NCBI RefSeq assembly: GCF_947623445.1
Contig: NC_135242.1
Coordinates: forward strand, 1,364,001 to 1,428,000
Length of the DNA stretch: 64,000 bases
Reading direction: 5' to 3'
Source: Clavelina lepadiformis
Taxonomy: Eukaryota; Chordata; Ascidiacea; Aplousobranchia; Clavelinidae
Shown here: positions 33,958 to 53,332 of the stretch, in pieces
Numbering within the stretch: position 1 is the stretch's first letter
Layout: every line of letters starts with the position of its first letter
Notes under the pieces: model-generated
What the model was told of the DNA's origin: nothing
Database searches by the model: none
What the model saw: only the letters and a program-made list of their open reading frames with translations
Made by a program: the position numbers and the translations under genes

Positions 33958-36900
33958 ATGGTGAGTTTTTTTATCGACTGCAAATGTATAAATAATTTTT
34001 GCAAAACATTGCCAAGTGGTTACGACAAAGATAATGTTATTATTACGTTGCCTTGCAATGAAGTCGGCCACCCACCAACGAAACATACCCGCATGGGTGC
34101 GTACCTACATTAAAAACTTATAAGTCTTTCTTTCTTTTTTATACCATTATGTCTGTTTGTTTGTTAAAAAAGCATTGTTGTTGAATTTTTCAAAAACATA
34201 AAAGCATATTAAAGAACAGAAACATTTCAAAGTTATTTCAAAGAAAGTCATTTCGAAGAAACTAAAGTTAAATTCTGGACCAGAATTGCATGTTCAGAAA
34301 AAAGAACTTACAACAAAATATATGATACTGGCTCTATATAGGGACCATCCCCAAAGCAAAACTATTACCATGCCGAGCCAAGAGCCCATATTAGGCTGCG
34401 TCTATTTCACCTGCTGCCAGTTACCAACTTTGGAAAAACCTACTTCGGTAAACGGCTAGCCGGTTGCGTAATTGGTGTATTCGTTCTTCGGTAAACGGCG
34501 GCCGGTGAAAAGACACTTCCTTTACAGGCTACTCTTTACCAAAGTAGGAAATTACGACTACGGTAAACCGCAATTACGCTAGTCAATGAATTTAAAAGTA
34601 TGCTAATTTTCGACTTAGAACGACGTAGCAATTTTTCCAAAGTGTAAATTAACCTAAAACTAGTCCCGTCTGACGCAAACTATCGCTTCTCTTGATTAGA
34701 TTACTAAGCAAGGCTGCGAGTTGGAATGAACGCTATTTATCAGCTAAAAATCACGATTTTTGTCCAAGGTCTAAATTAATTTAAATCTAATTCCCTTCGA
34801 CCCAGATTCTCATCTCTCATGAATAAACTAGCTCAAAAATAAGTGTAAACAAATAAAAAGAAAGAAGTCAAACATAAGCAAGATCTGAACCTGAGACCTC
34901 CAGCATACAAGCATTGTCGTTAACCACTACGCCACTTCAATGCTTTCTGCCACTCGTCTAAAATGAGGGTCATAAACCCATCCATAAAAATCTGCCAGTC
35001 ACCGTATTGTGATTCAGCAACTTCTGTCTAAGGACCCTTATGAAATAGTCACTTCAAAGACATTAACAAATAACAAGCCCATTCGCTCTACTCACCGCCA
35101 TATTGAAATGACCAACAATTTTGGTAATTGGAAAATGTTGATGGGACAAATAAAAAATGGATTGAATTCGGTGTGACTATATTTTTATATAGCTTCTGTA
35201 GTGGCTAAACCATGTCAACCTCAGCCCGTCCGTCAGTATAAGCTAAAATACAGCCAGGTTCAGTAGCCGATTGGTTTAAAGCACTGGGCATGCTATAATG
35301 TGAACTGTGTTCGATACCCATTGTCGTTATCATTGTAATGTCCTTGGACAAGGCATTAACCATACTCCTTGTCAGTGGTGATAAACAGTTCTATATTAGG
35401 TTAATACTATGAAAAAAACAAAATCAAACTAGGTAACCCGGGTAGAAGAATCATCACCGACTTTAAGTTGTGCAAAAACATTCCTCACTCTGAGGATATA
35501 GATTATGATACCACACCAGGTCTGGTATAGTCGAACCTTCAAAACTGCGGAATTGATTTCTTCTCATGCATTTTGCCTTTCTATTAATCTTGAAACCTGG
35601 CTGCCTGACCCTGACAATCAATCAATCAACCAAATCATTAAGAAATGCCCGATAATCTGGATTACAAAAACTGTTACATACTTATACATATCTTTGTATA
35701 CTTCAATAATTACAATTATCTAAGATGCAGTCATTGACTTATTTTTTAAATTCTTTTTCTTGAATCAGTCATGTTTGGTCTCTAATATGGTTCTTTTTTC
35801 TCGTCTTAATTTCTAGTTTAGTCCTAAAAGATTGAACTGTAATATTTTTTTTATTTCAATTATTCGGATATTTAGCTAAACCAACGATTTTCGACAAAAC
35901 AAAGTGGTATGGATTGAAGAGGTCTGCATGACTTTAAAAAAATAGTGGAATAAATATGAGACGTAGGATAAAAGCACTTAATGCAGTATTTTGAGCAAAT
36001 TCTCATATCTGAAAATATCACACCAAATGTTTCAACTTTGAAACAACTTTTTTCATTACGTTCAAAAATCATTTATACTTTTTCTATAGTGACGTTTTGC
36101 ATGCGACCTTCGTCGCAATCGCCGTGTTGCCGTTTCAAACCTGCTTAAAATGGTACTACAGGCCCTTCAGGCTTTGTTTTTCTAGAATGTGCATCCCTGC
36201 TCATTAAATACTTAGGCTATGCTGAAATGTACATGTTTAACCATCGCACAATGCTAATAATTGATCTTGATAATAATTCGTAGTGATAATAATAATACTT
36301 GTAATACTTGATCTATTAGTCACAATAACCTACCACATTGACTGGCACAGGAAACTTGTGATCATGTGAAAAACTATAATGCAAAAGAATTTCTCACTTC
36401 CTGGAATAATGAAGATTATATCGGAAATGGAAACTTTGCCAGTGTAAGACGATGTTATCATCCAGAATTGGATGCTGTGGTAGTGAAGGCGTACTCTGTT
36501 ACGGGAAACAAGGACAGAAAGAAGAAAATCACAGAAGAGTATGATTTATATTTTGTTTTTTTTTCTTTCTATTTATTGTATTCATAAGATAGTAATTTAA
36601 ATTGCTCATGCTAGAAATTATCCACATTTACAAAACGTGTAAAGTATAAACCAAGAGTTTCACGATTTCCTCCTTGGAAAGTTTTTATTTGAAATATATG
36701 CTAAATCAATTTTGGTACACAGTGAATGATTTAACTTATTTCTTGTACTTTTCTCAGATTTTATGATGAAACAAAGGTTCTTGAGCTAATTGCTCACAAA
36801 AACATTGTCAAAGTTTTTGGCACTGCAAAATGGTCAAAATTTTTGGGTATTGTGATGGAGTACATTGATGGTGGGGCACTGCAGGATTTTCTTTTAGATA

Positions 36901-53332: not shown

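Follow-up and report, generated by a model that had tools for sequence, protein, structure and literature searches.

The gene and its domains

On the forward strand of the window, the whole 64-kb stretch of Clavelina lepadiformis DNA that was analyzed, 29 coding exons lie between 33958 and 54192. Joined by hand, with GT-AG borders at all introns (28/28), they encode a protein of 1411 aa. The translation agrees at every residue with an NCBI entry (P0001), the automated prediction "uncharacterized protein LOC143448919 isoform X3" from C. lepadiformis, and the cluster behind P0001 comprises five member sequences from one contig. A previous sequence-only reading had joined 27 exons and an inferred start exon in one frame into about 1415 residues ending at 53332. 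The exon count and coordinates of that model were reproduced and the chain is indeed continuous, but its final junction and length had to be corrected. The true junction of the penultimate exon runs from the donor at 53323 (GTTAAA) to an acceptor at 54157, and the coding sequence ends at 54192, in an exon missing from the earlier model. Because this splice to 54157-54192 gives exact identity with P0001, we rejected the stop at 53332 (VK followed by a stop codon) as the end of the main form. An AATAAA is found at 53362, just past that stop, and a read-through isoform ending at 53332 may exist besides the spliced form. The features of the locus are as follows.

33958..33960, + strand: coding exon 1, start codon only; donor GTGAGT; METC also at the start of P0001
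36351..38702, + strand: kinase 1, residues ~2-312 (Pfam 21-301); Pfam Pkinase 2.1e-43, PDB matches RIPK1, IRAK4, and RIPK2
36351-36538, 36758-37231, 37344-37579, and the start of 38668-38877, + strand: exons of kinase 1
38703..40257, + strand: linker 1, residues 313-454, acidic, containing [12 protein letters not shown]
40258..40490, + strand: SH3 of Src module 1, residues 455-512; Pfam and PDB c-Src match
40491..42257, + strand: SH2 of Src module 1, residues 513-600, FLVR Arg replaced by Thr541 (FMIT); Pfam SH2 1.1e-6 and alignments
42276..47333, + strand: pseudokinase 2, residues 607-868; PDB match and motif table
47322..47376, + strand: Src-like C-tail exon of module 1, [18 protein letters not shown]; Tyr880 aligned with the Src tail Tyr
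48036..48461, + strand: linker 2, proline-rich, residues 885-927
48462..49156, + strand: SH3 of Src module 2, residues 928-985; Pfam SH3_9 5.3e-11
50658..51713, + strand: SH2 of Src module 2, residues 986-1079, FLVR Arg present as Arg1012 (FMIR); sub-threshold Pfam score, alignment, and model
51888..54159, + strand: pseudokinase 3, residues 1138-1401; PDB match and motif table
54157..54192, + strand: last coding exon, DFFNGYLPCSS and stop; identity with P0001, absent from the earlier model

The protein thus listed has the order non-RD RIPK/IRAK-like kinase, linker, SH3-SH2-pseudokinase, linker, SH3-SH2-pseudokinase. A Pfam search of the joined protein recovered the kinase (PK_Tyr_Ser-Thr, 9.5e-141, three stretches), SH3 (SH3_1, 9.4e-17, two stretches), and SH2 (8e-9) folds. 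The three kinase folds, two SH3 and two SH2 domains read earlier from the DNA are therefore upheld, six of them by Pfam and the second SH2 by its alignment to Src and its predicted fold, the latter built with Src-type rows in its alignment. On its own, this second SH2 scores 16.8 bits, below the Pfam cut-off of 21, and its Arg1012 occupies the invariant column R91 of alignment A2. All three exons of linker 1 are phase 1 to 1, and the linker is homologous (33-35 bits) to that of P0045, a second C. lepadiformis protein described below. A short proline motif of the protein, PAVPER, is a candidate SH3 ligand; P0045 has PVVPEQ at the same place.

The exons very probably form one gene. As a control, random AG...GT segments were taken from other parts of the window to match 27/29 exons and joined in the same way; none of 2000 such sets was stop-free (mean 80 stops, minimum 51). 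No stop interrupts the reading from module 1 across its Src-tail exon into linker 2, and the introns between the modules keep the phase. No further copy was found in the window outside 33900-54300 by tblastn with P0001 and P0045 (1e-3).

The intron between kinase 1 and linker 1 contains 31-base tandem repeats with CCGG-rich words at 38046-38590, together with a CCGG-rich 32-base inverted repeat (91% complementary, arms 481 bases apart); these repeats resemble a small mobile or satellite element. The same intron has a 31-base inverted repeat at 37757-37895, whose arms are 77 bases apart. Elsewhere in the window, a single-exon TMEM18 homolog (Pfam PF14770, 4.2e-33) occupies 13640-14047 on the minus strand.

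One apparently intact kinase and two apparently disarmed Src-type modules

The catalytic motifs of the three kinase folds were compared by alignment to Src. Kinase 1 has K47, E68, D149, N154, and D167; its glycine loop [12 protein letters not shown], alpha-C Glu, HSD, Asn, and DFG are complete save for the Arg of HRD, making it a non-RD kinase. In kinase 2, the Lys of VLVK is retained (Lys652), while the alpha-C Glu is lost, HRD has become HGN, and DFG has become GFG. Kinase 3 has lost the Lys of VAIK and the Asp of DFG (GFC) and has kept HGD. This agrees with the earlier statement that the main catalytic residues survive in the first kinase alone. From these motifs, kinase 1 is apparently catalytically competent and kinases 2 and 3 look catalytically dead. 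Residual nucleotide binding or activity may persist in the two pseudokinases, since pseudokinase 2 retains the Lys and pseudokinase 3 its HRD Asp.

We then asked which known kinases each part resembles. For kinase 1, a profile was built from four sequences, namely kinase 1 itself, the first kinase of P0045, and two open frames, each a single exon, from the same genome (L011 and L012). Its best PDB matches were RIPK1 (126.8 bits), IRAK4 (124.8 bits), and RIPK2 (118.2 bits), and together with the motifs these matches identify a TKL domain of the RIPK/IRAK type with its catalytic residues in place. In a tree of 44 kinase domains, which held no RIPK or IRAK row, kinase 1 grouped with the first kinase of P0045 (100/93), and these two with L011 and L012 formed a Clavelina clade (100/98) on the TKL side. 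The RIPK/IRAK kinases are likewise TKL and are the nearest solved kinases to kinase 1; according to Pfam, the window protein differs from them in carrying Src modules instead of a death domain or RHIM, and no match to a death domain, CARD, ankyrin, or RHIM was found in it outside the kinase.

The Src-type identity of the other two cassettes is indicated by PDB matches and by the tree. Module 1 matched c-Src best, over positions 3-418 of 428 (2.7e-80) and thus across SH3, SH2, and kinase. For module 2, the match to the best Src entry (5.3e-40) came almost wholly from the kinase part, and the SH3-SH2 stretch was weak (15.1 bits). Kinase 2, the second kinase of P0045, and kinase 3 grouped together (99/99) within a larger group that includes the Src-family rows (95/91); the branch of kinase 3 is long (2.21), as are those of the first kinase of the sea star protein P0112 (see below) and of some references. 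A predicted model of module 2, made with an alignment of 28 database proteins, nearly all of Src type, had a mean pLDDT of 69.9 and showed the SH2 helix-strand order. It matched full-length Src entries (1.5e-30) with a TM-score of ~0.5 and an rmsd of ~22, so that the domains are recovered and their relative placing is not; because Src-type proteins are in its alignment, this match is not independent evidence.

With the Src family, the modules share the SH3-SH2-kinase order, the fold, the C-tail, and the position in the tree. They differ in being non-N-terminal, catalytically dead, duplicated, and joined to a TKL kinase; neither has the complete set of Src-family catalytic motifs (VAIK, alpha-C Glu, HRD, DFG). 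The protein begins METC and has no MG start for myristoylation, a feature also missing from some relatives of Src. In module 1, Tyr880 lines up with the regulatory Tyr of the Src tail, and module 2 has no Tyr at that place.

Both Src modules are duplicates of one cassette, as judged from gene structure, because they share the positions and phases of nine out of ten introns. Module 1 has ten introns in the stretch that can be aligned to module 2, and nine of them fall at the same place and in the same phase there, two being shifted by alignment gaps and the last one matching when the donor at 53323 is used. The tenth, in the SH2 of module 1, is absent from module 2, where the exon is fused.

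The phosphotyrosine-binding side of the modules is less complete than had been supposed. A Ser/Thr-type kinase tied to two phosphotyrosine adaptor units had been proposed, and the architecture stands; two such units are too many, however, because only the second SH2 retains the phosphotyrosine-binding Arg. The SH2 of P0045 reads FMIT like that of module 1, and the loss is therefore inherited and maintained.

Relatives in Clavelina and in other animals

P0045 is a C. lepadiformis protein of 1020 aa located on another contig (11.6 Mb). It aligns with P0001 in two blocks, of which one covers kinase 1 (40.5% identity) and the other spans linker 1 to kinase 2 (43.1%). Like the window protein, it has kinase 1, the homologous linker, an SH3, an SH2 without the Arg (16.7 bits, under the Pfam cut-off), and a Src-type pseudokinase with the AGFG of kinase 2, all in the same order; it differs in its single Src module and longer linker. 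Since P0045 has kinase 1, the homologous linker, and the Src module, the sequences place the fusion of kinase 1 to a Src cassette before the split of the two genes. When the kinase exon of P0045 was compared with the present assembly, the best match was 52% identical (45 scored of 304 candidates), and P0045 may for this reason come from another assembly or population. Gene presence/absence, lineage divergence, or a gap would each fit so weak a match. An AlphaFold prediction of P0045 made without an alignment was uninformative (mean pLDDT 31.5).

Kinase 1 has many relatives in the genome searched (209 Mb, 95 contigs; the published assembly has 210.1 Mb and nine chromosomal pseudomolecules, PMC10884593). 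A query with kinase 1 gave at least 129 matches at E ≤ 0.001 (125 scored of 301 candidates), three of them the window's own exons, and some of the 129 no doubt belong to other kinases. Leaving the window's own exons aside, the main exon of kinase 1 was matched best at 45-50% identity among the 125 scored of 301 candidates. Four frames (L013, L014, L015, and L016) finish in MDVY or MDIY or have it close to their end; the window has the like at its donor, consistent with a common splice position. RIPK/IRAK-like kinases look to have expanded in the Clavelina lineage. Large clusters of kinase-1-like exons and single-exon kinases are found, for example, at C4:21.6-24.4 Mb, C2:3.31-3.43 Mb, C5:21.2-21.9 Mb, and C9:14.4-14.8 Mb, and nine kinase-1-like frames have HGD or HCD in place of HRD, that is, they are non-RD. 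On the window's own contig, SH3 and SH2 matches lie close together at four places in C3:3.31-3.38 Mb, a small SH3-SH2 gene cluster. There is also an SH3 at C3:543117 upstream of a kinase match at C3:554440, a pair that would fit an MLK-type gene, in which an SH3 precedes the kinase. No kinase-1 match lay within 50 kb of an SH2 match, a comparison that carries no weight because the window's own SH2 and SH3 exons were missing from those matches as well.

The architecture had been thought new. Its general design, a TKL kinase N-terminal to one or more Src-derived pseudokinases, is not unique and is also present in a sea star and in metagenome proteins. In the sea star Patiria miniata, P0112 ("tyrosine-protein kinase STK-like," 727 aa; among the 120 matches listed of 296 significant, from 3238 candidates) consists of a TKL-type kinase, SH3, SH2, and a Src-type kinase, and P0113 (576 aa, on a contig of equal length) contains part of the first kinase. 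Like the window protein, P0112 places a TKL-type kinase before SH3, SH2, and a Src-type kinase without the HRD Asp (HRQ). It differs in that its first kinase is nearest to MAP3K20/ZAK, there is one module, and the SH2 Arg and the other Src-kinase motifs are retained.

Six metagenome proteins (P0041-P0044, P0047, and P0048; 1389-1501 aa) came from a search of proteins of ~776-2469 aa, with 70 significant of 4791 candidates, and have one TKL-like kinase, three Src-like kinase folds, and SH3. In the two that were checked (P0041 and P0044), the first kinase retains the Lys, Glu, HRD, and DFG Asp, and the later three folds have lost the HRD Asp and, save one (CDLD in P0044), the DFG Asp. Compared with the window protein, the six have three pseudokinases, an SH3 before the last one in the 4/6 where it was located, no SH2 among their listed Pfam domains, and a first kinase outside the Clavelina clade of the tree. 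We did not count as the same design P0046, with six kinase folds, or P0002, an Srms with two active-looking Src-type modules. Two further metagenome proteins show a different multi-kinase Src architecture, in which an SH2 precedes several Src-like kinase folds, four in P0110 and three in P0111; HRD and DFG are intact in the first of these folds. As judged from the tree and from best hits among predicted proteins, the ascidian, sea star, and metagenome designs are apparently separate fusions, because their first kinases belong to different TKL kinds. We recognized no description of the architecture among the open-licence papers searched. A survey of the tyrosine kinome discusses Src-module proteins and domain shuffling, and the words "fusion," "tunicate," and "Ciona" do not occur in its main text (PMC8662651). 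For lancelets, tyrosine kinase activity is reported among the functions enriched in dispensable genes (PMC12373286).

How the protein may work

Proteins in which an active kinase and a pseudokinase share one chain are known from JAK, which has the order FERM-SH2-pseudokinase-kinase, with the pseudokinase first and both folds of the tyrosine-kinase type. The window protein resembles JAK in this pairing and differs in that its two parts come from different kinase groups and the active kinase stands first; the order and domains are not those of JAK, and the two JAK rows fall elsewhere in the tree. It has one kinase with the key residues and folds without them, as in tandem kinase-pseudokinases taken as a working type. 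Among these, the plant protein WTK1 also joins a non-RD kinase to a pseudokinase in one chain, and a decoy role has been proposed for it (PMC6170490). The plant family is described there as having no other conserved domains, whereas the protein studied here has SH3 and SH2 domains and its kinases 2 and 3 are of Src type.

We therefore lean, with modest confidence, toward a tandem kinase-pseudokinase signaling protein in which Src modules without catalysis would regulate or direct an active kinase 1. The modules would no longer phosphorylate; their SH3 domains would bind proline motifs and the second SH2 phosphotyrosine, and in this way they could hold and release, restrain, recruit, or report to kinase 1. 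Tyrosine phosphorylation or docking at the Src part would then be turned into Ser/Thr phosphorylation by kinase 1. More speculatively, the second SH2 might clamp phosphorylated Tyr880, replacing the cis clamp lost by the SH2 of module 1. This would be the neatest version, because Tyr880 aligns with the Src tail Tyr and the SH2 of its own module lacks the Arg. With less assurance, we suggest that the pathway may be an immune one, since kinase 1 is of the non-RD RIPK/IRAK type and the genome holds many related kinase exons. A link between non-RD kinases and innate immunity has been reported for both animals and plants (PMC8463890).

The most serious alternative, which we nevertheless consider unlikely, is an integrated decoy, in which the dead Src modules would bait a pathogen protein that attacks Src-family signaling and kinase 1 would be the alarm. 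The non-RD RIPK/IRAK type of kinase 1 and its 129 genome matches with many related kinase exons would suit such a role, as would the P0045 kinase exon (at most 52% in the assembly, 45 scored), which fits presence/absence variation. The precedent of the plant tandem kinase-pseudokinases is itself a proposal (PMC6170490). Because both SH3 domains and the second SH2 are still recognizable binding domains, the same facts fit ordinary signaling.

It is also conceivable, at a low probability, that some unusual mechanism keeps kinase 2 or 3 active, which would make the protein an enzyme with more than one working kinase. There are active kinases whose motifs are odd, and the beta-3 Lys of kinase 2 and the HGD of kinase 3 could be read in this way, but both catalytic Asp residues are absent from kinase 2, as are the Lys and the DFG Asp from kinase 3. 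Very unlikely, in our judgment, is that the Src part is a catalytically lost cassette decaying neutrally within the gene of an active kinase. The lost motifs, the weak second SH2, and the long branch of kinase 3 would be expected of decay; against it, the 11 exons of module 1 and ten of module 2 are open and have GT-AG splice sites, and the stretch from linker 1 to kinase 2 is 43.1% identical in P0045 with the same losses (FMIT and AGFG), an argument that concerns module 1 alone. Two or three neighboring RIPK-like and Src-like genes, transcribed separately and fused by both the earlier reading and the NCBI predictor, are the least probable case, for although the introns 37579-38668 and 45010-47322 are long and the first contains repeats, the NCBI prediction is identical to the 29-exon model, P0045 on its other contig has the same order and a homologous linker between kinase 1 and SH3, and the inter-module introns are in phase with no stop from the tail exon of module 1 to linker 2.

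A regulated kinase 1 bearing dead Src modules thus remains our preferred reading. As far as the sequences compared here indicate, the pairing of a TKL kinase with a dead Src cassette is apparently unusual and recurrent, although kinase-pseudokinase proteins are already known as a kind. A 2018 paper states that the kinase-pseudokinase arrangement is unique to JAKs among animal kinases (PMC6170490). The window gene, P0045, and the sea star and metagenome proteins look like counter-examples to this statement, and all of them link a Ser/Thr-type kinase with a tyrosine kinase module that has been disarmed. A bolder and rather doubtful extension is that animals, beyond the JAK family, have repeatedly joined an active TKL Ser/Thr kinase of the immune or stress type to dead Src modules, on three or more occasions (ascidian, sea star, and a metagenome lineage), and that the Clavelina gene is an immune sensor whose Src decoys or phosphotyrosine sensors trigger the non-RD kinase; if true, animals would have an equivalent of the tandem kinases that confer resistance in plants. 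The gene offers a direct test of whether a dead Src cassette can regulate in cis, and of whether a RIPK/IRAK-type kinase can receive phosphotyrosine input straight away, with no adaptor in between.
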